A stretch of DNA of 43,348 nt, taken from positions 1-43,348 of the IMG/VR virus record IMGVR_UViG_3300046170_000405, one strand, 5' to 3'. The translations under genes were made by a program, and so were the position numbers. Each line of letters starts with the position of its first letter. The stretch's first letter is position 1. The stretch is from a virus. Below are positions 10,100 to 39,056 of the stretch, one piece after another. The notes under the pieces are model-generated. The model did not search any database. It was not told the origin of the DNA and was given only the letters and a program-made list of their open reading frames with translations.

Positions 10100-11728
<1,629 letters not shown>

Positions 11729-15414: not shown

Positions 15415-18130
15415 ATGAGAAAACTATTATTAGTTGGATTGATGCTCTTAACGAGTATCACTACTTTTGCACAAGTTAGTGGGAAAGTATTAGACATCGA
15501 AACTAATGACCCTCTACCAGGAGCAACCATCATCGTTCAAGGAACGGCGGATGGAGTTGTAACTGGTTTTGATGGTACATTTGAACTCGATGTTAAAAAC
15601 GGAGAAGAATTGATTATCTCCTATCTAGGGTATGAAACTGCATTTGTTGTTTCTACTGTGGATGATTTTATGGAAATCTACTTAGAACCAGACCTAAATC
15701 AATTAGGTGAGGTTGTAGTAACTTCTGGTGTAATTGATATTGCGAAGGTGAGAGAAACACCTGTTGCTGTATCAACTATTTCACCTGCAGAAATTGCTTT
15801 AAAAGTAGGTAACCAAGAGTTTCCTGAAATCATGAATAAAACTCCTGGAGTTTACGCTACCAAACAAGGTGGTGGTTATGGTGATTCAAGAATCTCTTTA
15901 AGAGGATTTGACCAAAGAAACACTTCTTTCCTTATTAATGGGCAACCAGTTAATGATATGGAAAACGGATGGGTTTATTGGTCTAACTGGCAAGGTTTAA
16001 CTGATGTTGCAAGTGGTATCCAATTACAAAGAGGTCTTGGGGCTTCGAGATTAGCAGTACCATCAGTAGGTGGAACTGTATCAATCTTTACAAAAGCTGC
16101 AGAGGCTAAAAAAGGTTCATCGGTACAACAATCATTTGGTAATGATGGGTACTTTAAAACTACTGCTTCTGTATCAACAGGATTATCTGATAATGGATGG
16201 GCTACATCTGTGTTACTTTCTAAGTGGCAAGGTGATGGTTATATCTATAACACAAAAGGAGAAGGTTACACTTACTTCTTTGCGTTAGGATATGCACCTG
16301 AAGATTCAGACCATTCTGTTAACTTTTCTTTCTTAGGTGCTGGACAATGGCATCACCAAAGAGATGTTTGGGTTTCTATTAGAGATTACCAAAACTTCGG
16401 TGAGTGAAGGAATTGATAGAAGATGGAACTCCAATGGTGGTGTTTTAAATGGTGAAGAATTCTCAATGAGAAGAAACTTCTATAACAAACCATTAGCAAC
16501 ATTGAATTGGGATTGGGATATTTCTGATAACCTTAAACTAGCTACATCATTATATGGTTCAGCTGGTAGAGGTGGTGGAACAGGTCCAAGAGGTAGAAAT
16601 TACTACAACTCGGAAACTGATATCTTACCTTTCAGAAAAGACCTTAACTGAACACTACTTAGAAAATGGTAGAGGTTCAAGAACTCCTGAAGGGTTTATT
16701 GATTTTGATGCAGTTGTTGCATACAATCAAGCAAATACAGACCCTTATAGTGGTGATTTACCATTCGCTGGTCAGTTAATTGGTTCTAATGGATTCCAAG
16801 ATGATGGTGTTAACAGAAGTGCACTTATTAGAAGAGCATCTATGAACTCTCATGACTGGGTTGGAGCAATCTCTAACTTAGAATATGAAAGTGGAAATTG
16901 GAAATACTCAGTAGGTATCGATTTAAGAAACTACACAGGTTATCATTATAGAACTAGTGAAATAACCTTATGGGATTAGATGGGTATTACTCAACAGGTA
17001 ATAAGAATTCTGCTGGTCAGATTATCAACACTACAATCGAAGCTTCTCCGTTCAATGATACAGGTATCAGAGGACCGAAGATAGATTATTATAATGTTGG
17101 TAAAGTTGGATGGCAAGGATTAAATGGTTTAGTTGAATATAACAACGAAACTATCTCTGCTGTTTTACAAGCTGGAACATCGAATCAATCTTTCCAAAGA
17201 ATTGATTACTTTGACCAACCAGGTAATCCTGAATCAGATACTAAGAATCAAGGTGGTGGATACATCAAAGGTGGTGCAAACTACAACATTGATGAGAAAC
17301 AAAACGTATTCTTTAATGCTGGTGTAATTTCAAGACAACCACAATTCGGTGCTGTATTCCCTAACTATGGAAATACAATTTCTGAAGATTTACAAAATGA
17401 AGAAATTAAATCATTCGAATTAGGATATGGTTTCATTGGTAATAACTTTAGAGTTAATGTTAATGCATATTCTACTGTATGGGGTAATAGATTCGTTCAA
17501 AGAAGTTTATCTAACCAACAAGGTGTAGATGGTTCAGCTCAATTTAAAGATATCGATGTTGTACACAATGGTATCGAAGTTGAATCTTCTTATAACCCAA
17601 CAGATAAGTTGAGATTAAAAGGTATGTTATCAATCGGTGATTGGAGATATACTAATGATTTCTCAGCAGAATTATTTGATGATAATCAACAATCAATCGG
17701 AACAGGTACATTGTACTTGAAAGATGCTAAAGTAGGAGATGCGGCTCAGTTCACATCTTATGTTGAAGCAGATTACGAAGTAATTCAAGGATTAAGAGTT
17801 GATTTGGGATATAGATTCGTTGATGGATTATATGCTGATTATTCAATCACAGATTCAGAATTTACTCAACCTGGTAACAAAGGAGCTTTAAAATTACCAT
17901 CTTATGGATTGGCTGATTTAGGAGCAACTTACAGATTTGAGTTATTCGGTTCTGATGCTTCATTTAGAGTTAATGTAAACAACTTGTTTGATACTTACTA
18001 TATTGCAGAATCAAACACTAATATTCATGCTGGAGATGCTTCAGAAACATGGAATGGTGTAGATACTAGAAACTCAGTATGGTTTGGATTTGGACGTACG
18101 TTCAATACTTCTCTAAAAGTAAGATTCTAA
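15415..18130 (+). CDS. TonB-dependent outer-membrane receptor (three frameshifts)
   Basis: About 904 residues after correction, a full-size Bacteroidetes receptor. Order: signal peptide (MRKLLLVGLMLLTSITTFA), carboxypeptidase-regulatory-like domain (GKVLDIETNDPLPGATIIVQ), plug domain (VRETPVAVSTISPAEI through SVGGTVSIFT), then a long beta-barrel ending in a phenylalanine (NTSLKVRF) as the barrel-assembly signal requires. Such proteins import bulky nutrients such as chelates or glycans using TonB energy. Frames change at 16405 (extra T), 16646-16647 (extra A) and 16972-16974 (missing G). It has no TATATTTG promoter of the phage type, and a strong terminator follows, so it is a self-contained unit. 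Ligand unknown. In a phage it is most unusual cargo. Confidence 0.9.
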
Positions 18131-18178: not shown

Positions 18179-18892
18179 ATGAAAAATACCAATAACTTAT
18201 TAACTATCGTAATACCTTCTTATAATGAGGAGAGATATATTTACAATACACTTTGGCAAATTTCAAGACAAAAGGAAATAAATGGAACTAGAGTTATTAT
18301 TTCTGATGCAAATTCAACAGATAAAACAATAGAATATATTAATAAAGCATCAAATGATTTTCCAAAATTAAAAATAGAACTAACAGAAGGTGGTCATACA
18401 CCAAAAGGTAGAAATAATGGTGCTAAGTTAGTAAATACCCCTTACATCCTTTTTATGGATGCTGATTCTGTATTACAAGGTTCAGAAGTTATTACAGAAG
18501 TCAAAAAATATCTAAACGATTATGAAATTATCTCATGTAAACAAAAATCAATTACATCTGATGATAAAAAATCAGTTTGGACTTATAAAATATTAGATTG
18601 GATTAGAAAAATAATGCCAATCACATTTTGTACAGGATGTTTCTTCTTAATTTCAAAAAAGAAATTTAATGAATTAGGAGGATTTGATGAAACCTTACAA
18701 AACTCAGAAGATTTTTGGTTATCTAAACAGATATCAAAATCAAAATTTAAAATAGTAAATGAATATATTGGACAAGATAATAGAAGGTTTCTTAAATTCG
18801 GTTATTGGAATTTTATTAAACTAAACTTGTTAAATTATTTATATTTTTGGAACATAAAATGGTTTAAAAAAGATGTTGGATACTGGAAATAA
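18179..18892 (+). CDS. Glycosyltransferase family 2
   Basis: A 237-residue GT-A fold glycosyltransferase. TIVIPSYNEERYI at residue 9 is the standard beta-strand/nucleotide entry, ISDANSTDKT follows, and LFMDADSV near residue 96 is the DxD-type metal and nucleotide-sugar site. GGFDETLQNSEDFWL near 163 is the acceptor-side acidic motif. No transmembrane segment is evident, though the C-terminus is aromatic and basic, which fits membrane association. Sugar and acceptor cannot be told. It starts directly after the receptor terminator and overlaps the NAD synthetase gene by 20 bases. Confidence 0.85.
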   Translation: MKNTNNLLTIVIPSYNEERYIYNTLWQISRQKEINGTRVIISDANSTDKTIEYINKASNDFPKLKIELTEGGHTPKGRNNGAKLVNTPYILFMDADSVLQGSEVITEVKKYLNDYEIISCKQKSITSDDKKSVWTYKILDWIRKIMPITFCTGCFFLISKKKFNELGGFDETLQNSEDFWLSKQISKSKFKIVNEYIGQDNRRFLKFGYWNFIKLNLLNYLYFWNIKWFKKDVGYWK

Positions 18893-28397: not shown

Positions 28398-29010
28398 TTA
28401 CGCTATAACAGTTTGTAATGAGTTAGAAGAAATAACAAATCTTCTTAATTTCTTACAACTAAATATAAGACCAGATGATGAAATACTAATTCAATATGAT
28501 GAATTATCTGTAACAGATGAAGTAAAAGATTATATTACATTAATGGATTCTATGCATAAAAATCATAAAGTAATTGGATTTCCTCTTAACAAAGATTTTG
28601 CAACATTTAAAAATAATTTAAAATCAAATTGTAGTGGAGATTATATTTTCCAAATTGATGCGGATGAGATTCCAAATGCTGCTTTAATAGAACACTTACC
28701 TACTTTGATAGAACAAAATCCTGTTGATGTTATATTTGTACCAAGAGTTAATATTGTTCAAGATATTACTCAAGAACATATTGATAAATGGAGATGGAAT
28801 GTTAATGATAAAGGATGGGTTAATTGGCCAGATTATCAATTAAGAATATATAAAAAAACAGATGATATAGAGTGGGGAAATAAAGTTCACGAAACCTTAA
28901 CAGGATATGATACTTTTTCAAACTTCCCAGCTGAAGAAGTTTGGTCATTGTACCATTATAAACAAATAGATAAACAAGAAAAACAAAACGAATTTTATGA
29001 AACAATTTAA
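28387..29010 (+). CDS. Glycosyltransferase, GT2-like
   Basis: A 207-residue GT-A protein. ISYAITVCNELEEITNLLNF at residue 2 is the nucleotide-binding start, and YIFQIDADEIPN near residue 84 contains the DAD version of the DxD metal site. RIYKKTDDIEWGNKVHETL near 154 is a motif common in GT2 proteins that transfer sugars to lipid A or peptides (LIPOXY/WaaE-like). The acceptor is not determined. Its end overlaps groES by 14 bases. Confidence 0.82.
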   Translation: MKISYAITVCNELEEITNLLNFLQLNIRPDDEILIQYDELSVTDEVKDYITLMDSMHKNHKVIGFPLNKDFATFKNNLKSNCSGDYIFQIDADEIPNAALIEHLPTLIEQNPVDVIFVPRVNIVQDITQEHIDKWRWNVNDKGWVNWPDYQLRIYKKTDDIEWGNKVHETLTGYDTFSNFPAEEVWSLYHYKQIDKQEKQNEFYETI

Positions 29011-29296
29011 ACCATTAGGTGATAGAGTTTTGGTAAAACCAAGCGAAATCAAGGAAGAAAAATCAAAATCAGGACTTATTTTATCCAACTCAACTACAAA
29101 TAGTAAAAAAGTTTATGGTGAAGTTGTAGAAATAGGAACAGGAATATTTTCTCAGAGTGGAGAAAGAATACCTATGACTGTGAAAGTTGGAGATAGTGTT
29201 ATATATGAACAATCTCATGCAAATAATACTATTGAGATTGATGGAAATAAGTATATAATTTTTAATGAACATCAGTTAATAGGTATAGTAGAATAA
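28997..29296 (+). CDS. groES: Co-chaperonin GroES
   Basis: A 99-residue GroES. FKPLGDRVLVKPSEIKEEK at the start, SGLILSNSTTNSKKVYGEVV with the mobile loop (residues ~23-35), VGDSVIYEQ near 65 and IIFNEHQLIGIVE at the end fit the family, including the final beta strand. GroES caps the GroEL ring (the groEL gene is at 10112). The usual groES-groEL operon is split here by 17 kb and other genes. The mobile loop has LILSNS in place of the usual hydrophobic IVL, so pairing may be adjusted to the phage GroEL. Confidence 0.93.
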   Translation: MKQFKPLGDRVLVKPSEIKEEKSKSGLILSNSTTNSKKVYGEVVEIGTGIFSQSGERIPMTVKVGDSVIYEQSHANNTIEIDGNKYIIFNEHQLIGIVE

Positions 29297-30160: not shown

Positions 30161-31738
30161 GTGAATAAACCATATTCTAAAAAAGATTTACTAGTAGGTT
30201 GTATCACTAAATACTCCAAATCAGATATTGAACCTTGGGTAGAATCAATTCAATAAGAGTGGTTATAGTGGTGGTAAAATGATGTTAGGTATATGATGTA
30301 TCACAAGATGTAATCAATTATCTTAAAAGCAACTCATTTCGATGTTTATCAATCTCAGTTAAATCAACATATTATTTTACAGAGATTTTTAGATTTACAC
30401 CATCTTCTAAAAGATATTGATTGTGATAGAATTATTTGGACTGATGTTAAAGATGTTATATTTCAAACAAATCCTTCTCATTGGTTAAATCAGAATCAAA
30501 CCAAACCAATCATTGCTTGTTCAGAATGTATTACATTTAAAGATGATGAATGGGCAGTTACAAATGCAGGAACATCTTTCCCTATGGAATGGGAATGGTT
30601 ACAAAATAAAACATCACATTGTGCAGGAACTATTGCTGGTGATAAAGAATACATTAGAGATTTGTTTATAAACATTTATAGATGGAGTTTAACAAGTTCT
30701 AATCCAGAACAATTATCAGACCAAGCAGCATATAATGTTTTAATCAATCAAACTCAATATAAAGATATTGTACAATTCACACCACAAGAAGATGGATTTG
30801 CAACACAACTTGGAACTGTTCTAATTAAGAAAGACCACTTCGGTGATAAATTATTAGAACCTACTCCAATCGTAGATGATTTAATCCGAAATCAAAAAGG
30901 AGAACCCTTTTCAATTGTACATCAATACGATAGAAGTCCTCAATTAAAAGAAAAACTTATCAACAAATACAAAAATATTATTCATAGAGAACCAAGTAAA
31001 GTAGATAATCCACCAGGATTTACATACGATAAGTGGTTAGATATTAGAAAGGATGGTAAGTATGATTCTCAGTACAATGAGTTACTTAAAGATAAAAAAG
31101 TAATTGTAGTTGGTCCATCTCCATCTCTTGAAGGAAGTGGTAAAGGAAAAGAAATAGATGGATATGATATTGTAGTTAGAATCAATAAAGCATTTCCAAT
31201 AGAAGAAGGATTAACAGATGATATTGGTTCGAGAACAGATATTCATTATCATTGTTTATGTACTGATATGCATTGTGGAGGACCAGTATTTTATGATGAA
31301 ATGAAATTAGATAATGTATTTGTATCTTGTCCTTATCCAAAATATGTTGGACCATTTCATGGTGATGTAACAAGATTTGAAAATGTAAACAAAAAATATG
31401 ATTTAGGATTTCATGTTCTAAATACTGATTACTACTTAGAGATTGCTAAAATGTTAGGTACAAGACCTAATTCAGGTACAATGACAATAATGGATTTACT
31501 TTGTTATGATTTAAAAGAATTACATATTACAGGTTTCACTTGGTTTAGAGATGGTTGGAGAAAATCTTATAAGAAATTAAGTGATGATAAATTTAAAAAA
31601 GTAAGTGATGAAGTTAAAAGTGAATTTAATGGTAATCATAAACAAAAACCACAAGAAGATTTAGTAAGAGAAATTTACTTAAATGATAATAGAGTATCAA
31701 TTGACAATGTAATGAAAGAAATATTGGAAGTAGAATGA
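30161..31738 (+). CDS. Two-domain glycosyltransferase: GT-A plus GT29/sialyltransferase-like (three frameshifts)
   Basis: About 524 residues from a GTG at 30161 after removing single extra bases at 30254, 30291 and 30325-30328. N-terminal half: LLVGCITKYSKSDIEPWVES, then CDRIIWTDVKDVIFQTNP, a DxD-type site of GT-A enzymes. C-terminal half: VIVVGPSPSLEGSGKGKEID (near residue 325), YDIVVRINKAFPIE and DDIGSRTDIHYHC, which resemble GT29 sialyltransferase-like domains; RPNSGTMTIMDLL may be the matching S-motif. Two transferases in one chain suggest two consecutive sugar additions. A CMP-sugar synthetase at 37411 could supply the donor. Without the frameshift fix only the part from about 30584 is readable. 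Confidence 0.7.
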
Positions 31739-32595
31739 AAAAAATAAAACTATATATTATAACATATAAGAGAAACGATATTCTTGCAGAAACTATTGAT
31801 TACATTTTACAATCTGATTTTATGAATGTATGTAATGGTGAGATATTCGTTATCAGTAATCACACTTCAACAAAATTAAAAGAAGAACATATTGATAAAG
31901 TTACACTCATACGAAATGAAGGAAGACCCGATTGGTCAAATGGTAATTTAAGTGAAAGTTGGAATCAAGCAGTAATACATGGATTTAAAGATTTATCAAA
32001 ACCAAATTGTGATTATGTAGTGGGATTCCAAAATGATGCAATATGTGATAAAAATTGGTGTTCTAATTTATTAAAGTTACATGAAAAATTTGATTATGTT
32101 CAAGGTAGATATGGTGATAATATTATCAGTTTTTCACCAGAACATATAAAGAAGGTTGGAATATATGATGAAAGATTCTGTGGAATTCAGTATCATTTTG
32201 CTGATTACCTTATTCGTTCAATACAAAACAATAAAGAAAGAACCTATGTAGATGATATTATGCATAGAATAACTTACAATAATAATCCCAGCCTTACACT
32301 AGATGTACCAGGAAATAGAAACATTACTGAAGATTTAAAAAGAAGACCTGATGATGGGGAACAAACTGGTATTTGGCAAGCTTCAAGAGTTGGTATCTAT
32401 CCTAGACATGCTTGGAACTACTTTACATGGAAGTGGGGTGGTACTCATTCTAAAGGATTATCAAGAGAAACTTGGACACAGAATTGGACTGAAGATTTCA
32501 AACAAAATATTCCAACAGGTCAAAAGAAAGAATTTGTTAGATATCCATATTTTGAAAAAGATATTAATAAAAAAATATACGAAATAGGATGGTAA
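31735..32595 (+). CDS. Glycosyltransferase, GT-A-like
   Basis: A 286-residue protein starting with KLYIITYKRNDILAETIDYI, the opening strand-helix of GT2-type glycosyltransferases. YVVGFQNDAICDKNW near residue 95 stands where a DxD motif would be; NDA is unusual and could mean weak metal binding. SFSPEHIKKVGIYDERFCGI near 135 looks like the acceptor-side GxxDE segment. It overlaps its neighbours (ATGA with the upstream gene, 7 bases with the kinase). Sugar specificity unknown. Confidence 0.7.
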   Translation: MKKIKLYIITYKRNDILAETIDYILQSDFMNVCNGEIFVISNHTSTKLKEEHIDKVTLIRNEGRPDWSNGNLSESWNQAVIHGFKDLSKPNCDYVVGFQNDAICDKNWCSNLLKLHEKFDYVQGRYGDNIISFSPEHIKKVGIYDERFCGIQYHFADYLIRSIQNNKERTYVDDIMHRITYNNNPSLTLDVPGNRNITEDLKRRPDDGEQTGIWQASRVGIYPRHAWNYFTWKWGGTHSKGLSRETWTQNWTEDFKQNIPTGQKKEFVRYPYFEKDINKKIYEIGW

Positions 32596-33951
32596 GTAAA
32601 CTAATAAATGTGGGAGGTAGTTCTGGTGTTGGAAAAACTACACTTACTACTTTCTTATCTTTTCTGTTTGATGATGTATATCATTTAAAAGGAGATGATT
32701 TGCATAAATGGGAAAGAAATGATTCCAATTGGAAAACTATAACTCATTTAAATCCTGATGCTAATAATTTAGAATTAGGTAAACAACAAATATTTAATTT
32801 ATTAGAAAACAAAACAGTATATAGAAATCACTATGACCACGATACTGGTAAGTTTGTAAATAATGTACAAATTAAACCCGATTATAATGTATTCATAAAT
32901 GAAGGATTGCATTCTCTTTATGACTCTTATTTATGTGATAGAGCTGATATAAACATCTACATTAAAACCGAAGAAAATTTAAAATATCAATGGAAGTTAA
33001 ACAGAGATATTGAAAAAAGAGGATACACGAAAGAACAGGTATTATCTGCAATAGATATGAGAAAAGGGGATGAGATAAAATATATTCACCCTCAAGAAGA
33101 AAATGCAGATGTGATTGTAACCTTTACAGAGAAAAAGGATAAATCAGTAGATTTAGAATACGAATGTAAAACTGAATATGGATGTGAAGTGATGGCAAAC
33201 CCTTAAAAAACTTTACAATCTTCATAGAAACTTTTTACTGTGTTGTAGAAAATCATCTTTTGAATATGAACTTATACAAGGTGCTGGTGGAAATCTATCT
33301 TATAAATTCAAAGATAAAGTAATTATAACCTCATCGGGTAAAACAATGTCAGATGTACATATATTGGGAGGATATTCTGTAACAGGTAATGATAAAGTTT
33401 ATAATAACGAAAGACCTTCGATGGAATTAAACTTTCATAAAAAGATAAACCAACGAATTGTATATCACACTCATCCTATATATGTAAACACTATATTATG
33501 TTCAAAGGAATCTAAAGAAGTTATTAGTGAGATATGTGAGGATTATGATTTTGATTATGTGGATTATGTAACACCTGGAGATGAATTGGCAGAAGCGATG
33601 AATGTGAATGAAAAAATTATATTCTTACAAAATCATGGATTAATTTGTTGTGGTAATTCCTTTACAGAAGTATTTAATAATAGTTTAAAAATAAATCAAC
33701 TATGTAAAGAATGGTTGATACGGAATTCAAAAACATTTAAAACATTTAGAGATAATATTAATAAAACTGATAAAAATTGTATATTGTATCCTGATGCAGC
33801 AATATTACCAGATGATAATTCTCAAATAAATGATTATATGTTACATATACAAGAAGAAGTGGGTTTAACCGCTAATCGTTTAACATCAGATGAAATAAAT
33901 AAATTAAAGAATATGGAATCTGAAAAATATAGAATTAAAATAAACAAATGA
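32589..33951 (+). CDS. P-loop sugar kinase joined to class II aldolase (one frameshift; fusion or two genes)
   Basis: First part (32589-33206): VGGSSGVGKTTLTTFL is a Walker A, and YNVFINEGLHSLYD fits the uridine-kinase/phosphoribulokinase fold. Second part (open from 33193, readable to 33951): GAGGNLSYKFKDKVIITSSG, YHTHPIYVN with two zinc histidines, and FLQNHGLICCGN are class II aldolase/adducin signatures. As written the kinase ends CEVMANP-stop at 33206, where the aldolase has no start codon of its own in frame. Removing one base in CCCTTAA (33199-33205) joins them into about 453 residues. Either a kinase-aldolase fusion, or an aldolase gene starting at ATG 33192 with the same shift. Likely act on a phosphosugar in the cassette. 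Confidence 0.72.
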
Positions 33952-35082: not shown

Positions 35083-35537
35083 AATTAATATCACATAGAG
35101 GAAATATAAATGGAGAAAATCCACAACTTGAAAATACTCCTGATTATATAGATAAGGCTATATCATTAGGTTATGATGTTGAAATTGATATATGGAAGGA
35201 TGAAGATGGTTTTTATTTAGGACATGATGAACCTATTTATCCAATTGAATTAGAGTGGTTAGTTGAAAGAAGAAACCACTTATGGATTCATTGTAAAGAT
35301 TTTGATTCTTTAACTGAACTAATACAAGTTGACTCAAACCCTATGCAGTTAAAGATATTCTATCATCAAAAAGAGGAGTACACAATAATAAGTGATAATC
35401 ATATTTGGGCTCATAATATATTAACGGCAAACGAAAAATGTATCATACCTTTACTTAGTCGATATGATATTGAGAATTGGAAACCAACTGATGTTTATGG
35501 AGTTTGTTCAGATTATATAGAATTTTTAAAGTTATGA
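35079..35537 (+). CDS. Glycerophosphodiesterase-like protein
   Basis: A 152-residue protein resembling the N-terminal half of GDPD enzymes: LISHRGNINGE at residue 3 (His-Arg), EIDIWKDEDGFYLGHDEPIY near 34 (E-x-D and H-D). These are the metal ligands and catalytic histidines of glycerophosphodiester phosphodiesterase. Usual enzymes have about 240 residues, so this is short, but motifs are intact. It could hydrolyse a glycerol-phosphate or related phosphodiester, or work in reverse chemistry on an activated intermediate in the cassette. Overlaps both neighbours by ATGA. Confidence 0.75.
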   Translation: MKLISHRGNINGENPQLENTPDYIDKAISLGYDVEIDIWKDEDGFYLGHDEPIYPIELEWLVERRNHLWIHCKDFDSLTELIQVDSNPMQLKIFYHQKEEYTIISDNHIWAHNILTANEKCIIPLLSRYDIENWKPTDVYGVCSDYIEFLKL

Positions 35538-36262
35538 ATGTAATATTTGATTTAAAAGATATCGGAATAGGAAAAAGAATATTTTTAGTAGGTAACGGAC
35601 CCTCTTTAAATAATATGAACTTAGATTTGTTGGAAAATGAATACTCTATTGGAATGAATCGTATTGAGTTATTATATCCAACAACTAAATGGAGACCTAC
35701 TCACTATGTATTCACTTCCTCTAATTGTCAAGATTCTAAGTGGGGTCATAAGTGGTCTAAGAGCATATTGAATGCATCAAATGAAGAAAAAACAACTCCT
35801 ATAATTTGGAGAAGATTTAGAGATGCTATTGAAACAAGGGGTGAAGGAAAACTTCCTCAAAAAACAATTTATTTAGATTCTATTACAGAATATCCATGTG
35901 GTGATGATAGACAGTTTTCAACTAATGCCGTAGAAAGATTGGATAAAAGTGGAACTACTATGAATGTTGCACTACAATTGGCATATTACATGAACTTTGA
36001 TGAAGTGTATGTAATAGGTTGTGATTCTAATTGGATAACAGCAACTAACACAACAAATACATCAGAAGGTGATATAAATCATTTCCATGCTGATTACCAT
36101 GCATCCATTGGAAATGGTGAAGTTGAGTTTAATAGAATGAATGCAACACATAAAACTGCAGTAAAATACTTTACAGAAGCAGGTAAAAAAATATATAATG
36201 CGGGATATAACTCAGCAATAACGGCATATGAACGAAAAATATTTGATGATTTATTTGTATAA
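35534..36262 (+). CDS. GT29/DUF115-like glycosyltransferase-related protein
   Basis: Start set at ATG 35534 (MNVIFDLKDIGIGKRIFLVG), overlapping the previous stop. The phrase IFLVGNGPSLNNMNLDLLEN, then SIGMNRIELLYPT and KWRPTHYVFTS, is the pattern of proteins that bind a nucleotide-activated sugar in a Rossmann-like fold (DUF115, sialyltransferase-like). YVIGCDSNW near residue 160 and HFHADYHA near 185 are further conserved-looking blocks. It shares the VxGxxPSL loop with the C-terminal half of the gene at 30161. Probable glycosyltransferase; acceptor unknown. It ends in the -33 region of promoter P8. Confidence 0.7.
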   Translation: MNVIFDLKDIGIGKRIFLVGNGPSLNNMNLDLLENEYSIGMNRIELLYPTTKWRPTHYVFTSSNCQDSKWGHKWSKSILNASNEEKTTPIIWRRFRDAIETRGEGKLPQKTIYLDSITEYPCGDDRQFSTNAVERLDKSGTTMNVALQLAYYMNFDEVYVIGCDSNWITATNTTNTSEGDINHFHADYHASIGNGEVEFNRMNATHKTAVKYFTEAGKKIYNAGYNSAITAYERKIFDDLFV

Positions 36263-36295
36263 TTCAAATAAATTTCGTATATTTGTATAACAAAT
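36255..36295 (+). promoter_or_regulatory. Bacteroidetes-type promoter with palindrome (P8)
   Basis: TTG 36255-36257 inside the end of the previous gene, 20-base spacer, TATATTTG 36278-36285 preceded by AATTTCG. Perfect dyad ATTTGT-ata-ACAAAT (36281-36295) identical to P1. It lies 8 bases before the cupin ATG and drives the second half of the sugar cassette. Confidence 0.82.
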
Positions 36296-36303
36296 ACCTT
36301 AAT

Positions 36304-36729
36304 ATGAAACAAGATAGTAATGTAAAACGAGTATTAAAAGATGATGGAGTAACTAATTCCTTATTAGTTGCTGGTCATGAATTTGAAAATCCAAAAACAA
36401 TAAACATTCCAACACTAGAAAAAGAATTAGGTTATAAAGATTCTTGGGCAGTTCGAGTAGTTTATAATGATAGATTTGGTGGAGTTATAATCAAACAGAA
36501 TCCTGGTGAAGGAAACAGATTACATTATCATCCTGATGCTGATGAGTGTTGGGTTGTTCTTGAAGGAGAATATGAATGGCAAATTGAAGAAGAAGTTAGT
36601 AGAGTTAAACAAGGAGATATAATTGTTGTAAAGGCTAACACATGGCATAAGATTACAGCAGTTGGTGATAAACCAGCGGCAAGATTAGCAATTACAAAAC
36701 CAGATGTAGAACACATATATGAAGATTAA
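36304..36729 (+). CDS. Cupin-domain protein
   Basis: Start set at ATG 36304 (MKQDSNVKRVLKDDGVTNSL), behind P8. About 141 residues with one cupin barrel: RLHYHPDADECWVVLEGEYE near residue 79 gives the H-x-H...E metal ligands with glycine, and VKANTWHKITAVG near 112 the second histidine motif. Small cupins in sugar clusters act as isomerases, epimerases or hydroxylases on nucleotide sugars or keto-sugars. Substrate not determined. Overlaps the dehydrogenase gene by 11 bases. Confidence 0.85.
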   Translation: MKQDSNVKRVLKDDGVTNSLLVAGHEFENPKTINIPTLEKELGYKDSWAVRVVYNDRFGGVIIKQNPGEGNRLHYHPDADECWVVLEGEYEWQIEEEVSRVKQGDIIVVKANTWHKITAVGDKPAARLAITKPDVEHIYED

Positions 36730-37414
36730 TTTTCAAAATAAAATAGCTTTAGTTGTTGGTTCATCTAAAGGAATTGGATTAGGAGTAGCAAATAAGTTTG
36801 AAGAACTTGGTGCAAAAGTAATCAGAGTTTCAAGAAAAGATGGAGTAGATATTTCAAGTAAGGAAAGTATAGATACATTCTTTGATGCAATAACTGATAT
36901 TTTAGGCCTTCAACATAATGGTATTGATTTCTTAATAAATGTTGCTGGTATAAACTTTTGTAAAAAAATAGAAGAAATAGAAATGGATGAATGGGATTCT
37001 GTAATTGATACAAATCTTCGTTCCTTTTATTACATAATTAAAAAATCCATACCATTAATGAAAAGTGGAAGTAGGGTAGTAAATGTTTCTTCAATTGCTG
37101 GTAGAAATAAAAGTATTGTAAGTGGAGTTCATTATACTTCTAGTAAGGCAGGTATTATTGGATTAACAAGACAACTTGCTCATGAATTAGGACCAAGAGG
37201 TATTCATGTAAATTGTACTTGTCCATCTCAAACACTTACTCCAATGTTAGAACAATCGATGACAAAAGAAGAACAAGATAAACTATGTGAAAATATTCCA
37301 TTGAGAAGATTAGGTACAGTTGATGACCAAGTAGGGCCAATTGTATTCTTATGTTCAGAACTTTCAAACTATCTTAATGGTTCTGTAATTGATGTAAATG
37401 GAGGACAGTTATGA
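36719..37414 (+). CDS. Short-chain dehydrogenase/reductase
   Basis: A 231-residue SDR. ALVVGSSKGIGLGVANKFEE at residue 9 is the cofactor loop, LINVAGINFCK near 77 the NNAG-like motif, VVNVSSIAGRN near 119 carries the catalytic serine, and HYTSSKAGIIGLTRQLAHEL near 139 carries Y-x3-K. It is complete for the family (about 240-250). Probably reduces a keto group on a sugar or polyol of the cassette, or a fatty-acyl-type substrate. Coupled by overlap to the cupin and CMP-sugar synthetase genes. Confidence 0.9.
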   Translation: MKINFQNKIALVVGSSKGIGLGVANKFEELGAKVIRVSRKDGVDISSKESIDTFFDAITDILGLQHNGIDFLINVAGINFCKKIEEIEMDEWDSVIDTNLRSFYYIIKKSIPLMKSGSRVVNVSSIAGRNKSIVSGVHYTSSKAGIIGLTRQLAHELGPRGIHVNCTCPSQTLTPMLEQSMTKEEQDKLCENIPLRRLGTVDDQVGPIVFLCSELSNYLNGSVIDVNGGQL

Positions 37415-38073
37415 AACAAGGAAAAGTTACAGCAGTAGTTGCGGTTCGTAAAGGTTCTCAGAGAGTACCTAATAAAAATATTAAACCATTTGGTGATACA
37501 ACCTTATTGGATTTAAAATTACAAACTTTATTAAAGGTTAGTAATATAGATGAAATCATAGTCAATAGTGATTGTGATAAAATGATTGAAATAGGAAAAT
37601 CATATGGTGTAAAAACAAAGAAAAGAGAAGAGTACTTTGCAAGTAGTGAAGCTTCTAATTCTGAGTTTCATGGTCATATTGGTAAAACAACTGATACTGA
37701 TTATATATTTCTGGCACCTGTATGTTCTCCTTTCATTAGTTCTGAAAAACATGAAGAGGCTATAGACCAATTCATGAATTCAGAATGTGATAGTTTAACT
37801 TCAACTTCTTTGGTAAAAGGACATTTGTGGTTAGATGGTAAACCTATTAACTATGATTTAAATAATGTACCAAATTCACAGGATTTACCTGATATTGAAA
37901 TGATAAATTATGGTATAACAATTGTAGATAAGAATATAATGAAAAATAAATCACGAGTTATTGGTGATAAACCAAATTTTATTATACTTAATGAATACGA
38001 GGGAGTAGATATCAACACTCCTTTTGAATTCCAAACAGCAGAAATAATATATAAATTAAAACAAAATAAATAA
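37411..38073 (+). CDS. CMP-sugar synthetase (acylneuraminate cytidylyltransferase-like)
   Basis: A 220-residue enzyme. AVVAVRKGSQRVPNKNIKPF at residue 9 corresponds to the CTP-binding start of NeuA/PseF/KdsB-type transferases (typically ARGGSKGIPRKN), IDEIIVNSDCDKM near 49 and YIFLAPVCSPFI near 90 fit the rest of the nucleotide site. It activates an acidic sugar such as a nonulosonic acid or Kdo as the CMP derivative. A sialyltransferase-like (GT29) domain is encoded upstream at 30161, so donor and transferase may match. Overlaps the SDR by ATGA. Confidence 0.85.
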   Translation: MKQGKVTAVVAVRKGSQRVPNKNIKPFGDTTLLDLKLQTLLKVSNIDEIIVNSDCDKMIEIGKSYGVKTKKREEYFASSEASNSEFHGHIGKTTDTDYIFLAPVCSPFISSEKHEEAIDQFMNSECDSLTSTSLVKGHLWLDGKPINYDLNNVPNSQDLPDIEMINYGITIVDKNIMKNKSRVIGDKPNFIILNEYEGVDINTPFEFQTAEIIYKLKQNK

Positions 38074-38075
38074 TT

Positions 38076-39056
38076 ATGGCAGGATTAAATTTCGAAAACA
38101 TTGGTGATAAATTCTTAGAAGTCATCAATACAAAAGAGTGGAATGATATACAAGAAAAATTCAACGATTGTGTTGATATATTTGTATTAGGACATGGTGG
38201 AAACTTAGGAGTTGCAGACCATGCAGCAACTGATATCTCAAGGTTATCAAATGGAACAAAGAATGCACAGGCACCTGGTAGTGCCATTGTAGCAACCTCT
38301 CTAATCAACGATTCTTCGTTTGATGATTGGATGGTTCATTGGGTAAGACAGAGAACAGTATCTCAAACACCAGAACAATTAAAGAAAACATTAATTCTTG
38401 GTATCTCATCAAGTGGTAAATCAATTGATATCATGAGAGCATTAGAAGATGGTGAATCAAGAGGAATGCAAATAGCAATGATTACATCAGCTCCAATACC
38501 AGAAAAGATTAACAACTTATCAGAAGTTGTATTAGGTGCTGAGTATTATCACACATCAGAAGTACTTACATTATTACTTACTTATCAACTTACACATGGT
38601 AGTGGTAAAGTTTGTCCTCCTATTTTCCAAAACAAACCAGAAGATTTAGAATTACTAAATAGACAAGGTGGTGCATCTGCAACAAGAGAACATTCTTATC
38701 CTGATGAATTAGTAAACATCGGTGTAGATTTCGATGGTGTTATTCACAAGAACTCAAAAGGATACCACGATGGAACTGTTTATGATGAACCAGTAGAAGG
38801 TGCAAGAGAAGCATTACAAAAACTATCTGAGAAATATGTTGTAATTGTATATTCTGCAAAAGCGAGAAAAGATAGAGGTTTAGTAAATGGACAAAGTGGT
38901 ACTCAATTAATTTGGGAATGGTTAAAAGAACATGATTTAAATCAATACGTTTCTAAAGTAACTTCACAAAAACCGAGAGCAGTTGCATATATTGATGATA
39001 AAGGAATCAAGTTTGATAATTGGGATTCAGTATTATCACAAGTAGATTTATCATAA
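38076..39056 (+). CDS. SIS-domain sugar isomerase fused to HAD phosphatase
   Basis: A 326-residue two-domain protein. N-terminal SIS part: VFVLGHGGNLGVADHAATDI near residue 34 and LILGISSSGKSIDIMRALED near 106 are the phosphosugar-binding loops, GmhA-like (sedoheptulose 7-phosphate isomerase) in style. C-terminal HAD part: GVDFDGVIHKN near 218 with D-x-D-G and IDDKGIKFDNW near 308 with the DD pair. The two activities could isomerise and then dephosphorylate a heptose-like phosphate, or the HAD part may be a separate module. It starts 2 bases after the CMP-sugar synthetase stop. Confidence 0.88.
   Translation: MAGLNFENIGDKFLEVINTKEWNDIQEKFNDCVDIFVLGHGGNLGVADHAATDISRLSNGTKNAQAPGSAIVATSLINDSSFDDWMVHWVRQRTVSQTPEQLKKTLILGISSSGKSIDIMRALEDGESRGMQIAMITSAPIPEKINNLSEVVLGAEYYHTSEVLTLLLTYQLTHGSGKVCPPIFQNKPEDLELLNRQGGASATREHSYPDELVNIGVDFDGVIHKNSKGYHDGTVYDEPVEGAREALQKLSEKYVVIVYSAKARKDRGLVNGQSGTQLIWEWLKEHDLNQYVSKVTSQKPRAVAYIDDKGIKFDNWDSVLSQVDLS

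Follow-up and report, generated by a model that had tools for sequence, protein, structure and literature searches.

The locus considered here raises the question of whether a virus encodes two different glycosyltransferases in a single chain and, if so, what such a protein would do. A sequence-only reading had proposed one protein of about 524 residues, in which a GT-A domain with a DxD-type site is followed by a domain resembling GT29, a family best known from animal sialylation. We examined this proposal in the window, i.e. the whole stretch of DNA analysed, which is an IMG/VR virus record of 43,348 bases with a G+C content of ∼28-36% along its length. The window encodes a ribonucleotide reductase, a family B DNA polymerase, GroEL and an IMPDH-like protein, and its DNA polymerase resembles tailed-phage enzymes (top match Microcystis phage Mel-JY01, 55%). 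The features of the fused gene and of the candidate donor genes are collected in Table 1.

Table 1. Positions in the window of the fused gene, its domains and motifs, and the candidate donor genes
Feature	Positions	Strand	Remarks
Two-domain glycosyltransferase gene	30161..31738	+	GTG start; interrupted at ∼30254-30322 relative to intact relatives
N-terminal GT-A-fold transferase domain	30161..30970	+	∼265 residues in intact relatives
DVKD, DxxD motif	30443..30454	+	both Asp invariant in alignment A7
His of VHQYDR	30920..30922	+	invariant in A7; probable third metal ligand, from the comparison with LH3 His253
GT29-type domain, C-terminal half	31043..31735	+	
Sialylmotif L region	31103..31252	+	Pfam PF00777 match
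Sialylmotif S region (TRPNSGTMTIMDLLCYDLKELHITGF)	31460..31537	+	profile alignment
Variant sialylmotif VS, HKQKPQ (HxQxxQ replacing Hx4E)	31637..31654	+	
Cupin and short-chain dehydrogenase genes	36283..37414	+	in L004 between the fused gene and the synthetase
CMP-sugar synthetase, candidate donor source	37411..38073	+	CTP_transf_3; best NCBIfam model PseF, far under its cut-off
SIS-type sugar isomerase and HAD-like chain, adjoining the synthetase	38076..39056	+	weak matches

Reading frame and intact relatives

The GTG start codon at 30161 is in frame with the stop at 31738; four stops interrupt this frame from 30254 on, and the frame is open from 30314 to 31735. Comparison with the near-identical relative L003 (98.5% identity to the window over 12.7 kb) revealed single-base insertions at 30254, 30288 and 30322, i.e. 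within a 69-base stretch, in agreement with the net three extra bases that had been placed between 30254 and 30328 from the sequence. An additional in-frame insertion of three bases lies at 30994. Over the 12.7 kb aligned there were four unpaired single-base insertions relative to L003, these three and a fourth at 33200, while two further insertion/deletion pairs (31263-31271 and 31413-31420) offset each other within 8 bases and appear to result from the placement of gaps in the alignment.

All four of the distinct complete loci, on four contigs, encode uninterrupted single chains (L002, 531 aa; L003, 523 aa; L004, 530 aa; L005, 518 aa), and in a fifth relative, L010, the gene is fused too, with the contig ending inside the GT29-type half. 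Because these four intact relatives encode unbroken chains, the single two-domain protein is real, and the possibility of two separate genes is ruled out. The window translation also places IIWTDVKDVIFQ and VVGPSPSLEGSGKG...VVRINKAFPIE at the positions claimed for them. The frame break in this record may reflect an assembly error, a mixture of strains or gene decay. Identity along the gene is mosaic, being 100% to L002 at ∼30455-31448 and 99-100% to L003 from 31449 on; the switch near 31449 therefore means either that domains recombine among these phages or that the assembly mixes strains.

The N-terminal half

We used the full-length structure model of L003 to assess the N-terminal half. Its pLDDT was ∼90 for most of residues 9-268, and block means fell to 24-65 after residue 270, the fold being interpretable only before this residue. 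The predicted fold matched the glycosyltransferase (GT) domain of LH3 (Z 18.0, 210 residues, 3.0 Å) and, tied with it, GT6 enzymes, i.e. ABO and alpha-1,3-galactosyltransferase (Z 17-18, up to 17.8 with 216 residues and 3.2 Å). Neither the LH3/PLOD-type domain nor GT6 gave a significant sequence match: a PDB sequence search with the N half returned nothing below E 0.6, no relevant Pfam match was found in 15 members (in one of which Med16_C was a stray better score), and the window chain had no match under 0.1 in PHROGs.

The part of the proposal that concerned the GT-A fold is therefore borne out by the predicted structure; the DxD motif is not, as IIWTDVKDVIFQ contains D94 and D97 of L003, which form a DxxD, and a distant histidine accompanies it as in LH3. 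D94, D97 and H253 of L003 are invariant in the 18 rows of alignment A7. In LH3 the Mn2+ ligands are described as Asp112 and Asp115 of a non-canonical DxxD together with His253 (PMC6082870), and the DxxD and His of the N half would, by analogy, superpose on these ligands. The likeness covers the GT-A fold and the pattern of DxxD plus His; LH3 itself acts on collagen lysines.

The C-terminal half

The second half had been proposed to be GT29-like, and three lines of evidence uphold this. Pfam PF00777 (Glyco_transf_29) matched the C half of the window protein with an E-value of 4.7e-11 (43 bits; cut-off 23), the match being confined to the motif L region; the same family scored over its cut-off in 6/35 virus records tested. 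A profile of 20 GT29-type domains matched porcine ST3Gal1 at 2.9e-12 across motifs L and S, and matched GT42 enzymes at 1.4e-9 and weaker; in profile alignment, motif S aligned to ST3Gal1 and ST8Sia3. Finally, the model of the C half (pLDDT 85, with residues 185-204 under 50) gave mammalian GT29 enzymes in all of its best 14 VIA rows (Z 13.2-16.2, 2.6-3.7 Å, 187-210 residues), i.e. the predicted structure corresponds to the GT-A variant 2 fold of mammalian sialyltransferases.

These fold matches exclude an unrelated fold for the second half. GT42, MptE-like and SteA proteins scored lower (VIA Z 10-12). GT42 enzymes (Campylobacter CstI/CstII, Pasteurella 9c08) share the wider fold, but with Z ∼11 and weaker profile matches, and the fold scores speak against a GT42 identity (CstI/CstII, Z 10.2-11.5, against 13-16 for GT29), as they do against an MptE-like identity (HPPK 8sd5, Z 11.6, below GT29).

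The domain shares PF00777, fold, motifs L and S and the VS histidine with CAZy GT29 (mammalian ST3Gal1, ST6Gal1, ST8Sia3 and ST6GalNAc2, and the bacterial set of Petit et al. 2018). The phage chain differs from that family in having HxQxxQ instead of Hx4E, VGP instead of VGN, and a fusion behind another transferase, and in its occurrence in phages. Human motif VS is given as Hx4E, with its His as the proposed catalytic base in GT29 (PMC8433944); this histidine is a nearly invariant column in alignment A8. The complete Hx4E is absent from the window domain, which reads HKQKPQ with Gln at the Glu position. Because Gln replaces this Glu, we call the domain GT29-type and not a canonical GT29 sialyltransferase. 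The consensus for sialylmotif III is (H/y)Y(Y/W/F/h)(D/E/q/g) (PMC8433944), and the corresponding region of the window domain has a Tyr in RKSYKK, with the alignment off by one residue. In the nucleotide loop the window domain has VGP, whereas ST3Gal1 and the bacterial L093/L094 have VGN.

In the phage set, 17/18 domains have the HxQxxQ form, and only the first L075 domain departs from it. This set combines the five fused proteins with L066 and with the twelve rows of a single fork, from a tree of 39 rows; it has no support as a clade there, and the L011 motif was taken from A8. Hx4E is retained in Spirochaetes and Colwellia proteins, in L080 and L087 (both from A8) and in L094. In the GT29-type tree, which has several long branches and 8/35 inner branches open, the bacterial sequences do not form one group (4 changes).

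Genes for the CMP-sugar donor

A nearby CMP-sugar synthetase had been suggested as the source of the donor. The synthetase of the window scored 55 bits with the PseF model, against a cut-off of 205.7, and it also gave weak matches to KdsB-type models. Across virus records, a synthetase over the Pfam cut-off was present in 23/38 with a GT29-type domain and in 0/29 with the GT-A domain only (Fisher p 3.5e-8, a test that counts related records as independent, although the GT-A-only phages are mutual relatives, as are G000-G005). When records of at least 20 kb were considered the figures were 22/29 and 0/21, and one GT-A-only record, G012, had a synthetase match below cut-off. Among the 38 GT29-type records, G007/G008 and G044/G357 nearly duplicate each other in length or sequence, and the distant L084, L086 and L088-L092 were classed by the A8 profile; the first round covered 26 of these 38 and 21 of the 29 GT-A-only records, and the remainder were added afterwards.

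The distance between the two genes varied widely. The synthetase lies 12 bases from the GT29-type match in L002, 33 in L067 and 231 in L076; in the window the gap is 5.7 kb, with other transferase genes between, and in the record of L063 it is 51 kb. Co-occurrence and the adjacency in L002 thus favour the suggestion that the synthetase could feed the transferase, and the 5.7 kb separation in the window itself counts against it.

NeuB was found in 7/26 GT29-type and 0/21 GT-A-only records (the first 47 records tested), at 74 bases from the GT29-type gene in L064 and 821 bases in L067. It was not found in the window or in L002-L005, though a synthetase is present in all five, so that the acidic sugar, if any, would come partly from host or off-contig genes. 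No KdsA-type (DAHP_synth_1) match was found in any of 16 records tested, the window and its four intact relatives included, and by this absence a Kdo pathway in the virus was ruled out. L067 and L064 are compact phage sets of NeuB, a CMP-sugar synthetase and a standalone GT29-type gene, which suggests that phages of this type encode several steps of acidic-sugar transfer.

Distribution and domain combinations

Each domain also occurs without the other. On its own, the GT-A domain makes up a protein of ∼264 residues in 29 further virus contigs (complete in 28, and cut by the contig end in L021). With the GT29-type alignment the second domain was found in 37 uncultured viral contigs, being standalone in, for example, L059-L065, L067 and the contigs of L012-L014. 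Elsewhere it lies behind other N-terminal parts: a GT2/GT7-like domain in L066 (711 aa), which carries the closest other GT29-type domain (43% identity) fused to a different transferase, a GT8 domain in L080, and an unclassified N-terminus in L011, L078, L079, L081 and L083 (∼635 aa). Two GT29-type domains per chain occur in L082 (1,046 aa) and L075 (1,224 aa). The latter, a phage chain at L075:3549-7220, also contains a PHROG-4603 sialyltransferase-like domain and one more transferase domain, and its two GT29-type domains are consecutive.

Bacterial GT29-type chains include L094 from Colwellia, in which the domain is fused to GT2, and L095 from Elusimicrobia, which has the same length as L080 and shares an identical stretch of 75 residues with it. 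As in the phage chain, the GT29-type domain is C-terminal to a transferase in the Colwellia GT2-GT29 and the L080/Elusimicrobia L095 GT8-GT29 proteins; these fusions differ in their N-terminal families and, for L094 and L080, in keeping Hx4E. A further bacterial chain of 524 aa, L104, has a GT29-type stretch and no GT-A profile match.

Domains of this kind had been described as rare in bacteria and phages. This holds for named phages, where a tblastn search with the window chain matched 1/50,697 records, through the GT-A half only, where L067 had one match, to an uncultured record, and where L078 and L014 had none; in PHROGs at 0.01, L067, L014, L078, L065, L064 and L029 had no match. It also holds for the phylum of Colwellia, in which 5/299 genomes had a match over cut-off, the Colwellia centre included. 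It does not hold for uncultured viruses, given the 37 contigs with the domain. A bacterial genome scan with a close alignment gave no match, and a second scan gave at least three GT29-type genomes.

Petit et al. (2018) described 23 GT29 sequences from bacteria, in which the four sialylmotifs are all present, and the word 'virus' is absent from the main text of that paper (PMC5811610). Our literature search, by title or abstract start, returned no paper on phage GT29. GT29 and two-domain transferases are already known; within the literature searched, the phage variant with a changed motif VS and this pair of domains appear to be new.

Proposed function and alternatives

We propose that the fused gene encodes a phage bifunctional transferase, which would add a sugar from a UDP-sugar and then cap it with a CMP-activated acidic sugar, and we put the probability of this at roughly 60%. 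The GT-A domain would, with the help of a metal ion, transfer a hexose or similar sugar from a UDP-sugar onto a glycan acceptor. The GT29-type domain would then cap the preceding sugar from a CMP-sugar in a metal-free reaction with the conserved His as base, the cap being an acidic sugar, i.e. a nonulosonate of the sialic, legionaminic or pseudaminic kind. The CMP-sugar would be supplied wholly or partly via the phage's own CMP-sugar synthetase. Both domains would act sequentially on one glycan, and the product would modify the cell-surface glycan of the infected bacterial host or form a coat on the virion.

The donor could be a different one. Plant GT29-like proteins have been proposed as Kdo/Dha transferases because plants are without sialic acid (PMC3522684), and a C-terminal domain with CMP-Kdo, or the CMP form of a related 3-deoxy-sugar, as its donor would agree with the missing NeuB and the weak KdsB-type matches of the window; we consider this unlikely in view of the NeuB genes in other GT29-type records and of the lack of a KdsA-type match in the 16 records, though host Kdo could serve. 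The pairing of the domains in one chain could also mean that they make an alternating two-sugar polymer and not a single cap. The GT97 capsule polymerases, a separate CAZy family that we liken to the phage chain by description, are bifunctional UDP-Gal/CMP-NeuAc transferases, i.e. likewise one chain with two donors, of which one is a CMP-sugar (PMC5811610). We nevertheless give a polymerase little credence, since no polymer-export genes were recognised among the scanned window proteins (a subset of the ORFs), and since the GT-A and GT29-type domains each occur alone, so that obligate coupling is not required.

The exchange of the VS Glu for Gln in nearly all phage-set domains and the VGP loop would be consistent with a GT29-type domain that has lost catalysis and serves the GT-A transferase as a nucleotide- or glycan-binding module. 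This we doubt strongly: the VS histidine and motifs S and L are retained across a wide set, the domain is accompanied by CMP-sugar synthetase genes, and, as standalone GT29-type proteins exist, a helper role makes little sense. Lastly, the gene could be dead in this genome, or the record could be a chimera of two co-occurring strains, with no functional protein here in either case, as three frame breaks in 69 bases and the passage from L002-like to L003-like identity might indicate. With four intact relatives showing that the architecture itself is real, and one other unpaired single-base insertion in 12.7 kb, we regard this as very improbable.

Beyond the capping transferase of this locus, a wider and more tentative reading, to which we give somewhat less than even odds, is that phage GT29-type CMP-sugar transferases form a large family with a phage-typical HxQxxQ, which is mixed with other transferases in single chains and serves to 'extend and cap' host or virion glycans with acidic-sugar endings; the fused protein would then be a new subfamily or family at the CAZy level. 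Such a broad phage set, with its varied fusion partners and its link to CMP-sugar genes, would, if true, provide a natural series on donor choice and on the role of the VS Glu, and single-chain enzymes of bacterial type for glycan synthesis. Phages would then be able to give bacteria acidic sugar caps, which may change phage adsorption.

Genomic setting of the fused gene

The fused gene lies in a neighbourhood rich in sugar genes, with transferases at 18179, 24937, 26596, 28387 and 31735, an epimerase at 29296, a nucleotidyltransferase at 33948, and the cupin, dehydrogenase and SIS/HAD genes. At 35504-36262 the window encodes another member of the wider sialyltransferase-like superfamily, which is MptE-like by Pfam (just under cut-off) and matches PHROG 4603, 'alpha-2,3-sialyltransferase'. 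Two ORFs at 32589-33951 correspond to a single 453-aa chain in L003 with PRK/uridine-kinase-like and class II aldolase domains, and the single-base insertion at 33200 lies within this pair.

A TonB-dependent receptor gene (CarboxypepD_reg, plug and barrel), split over several frames, is present at 15415-18130. It may be captured host DNA, and its CarboxypepD_reg domain hints at a Bacteroidota host. GroEL is encoded at 10112-11728 (PHROG 5725, 7e-174), and an ORF that is GroES-like by eye lies 17 kb from it, at 28997-29296, inside the sugar gene cluster.
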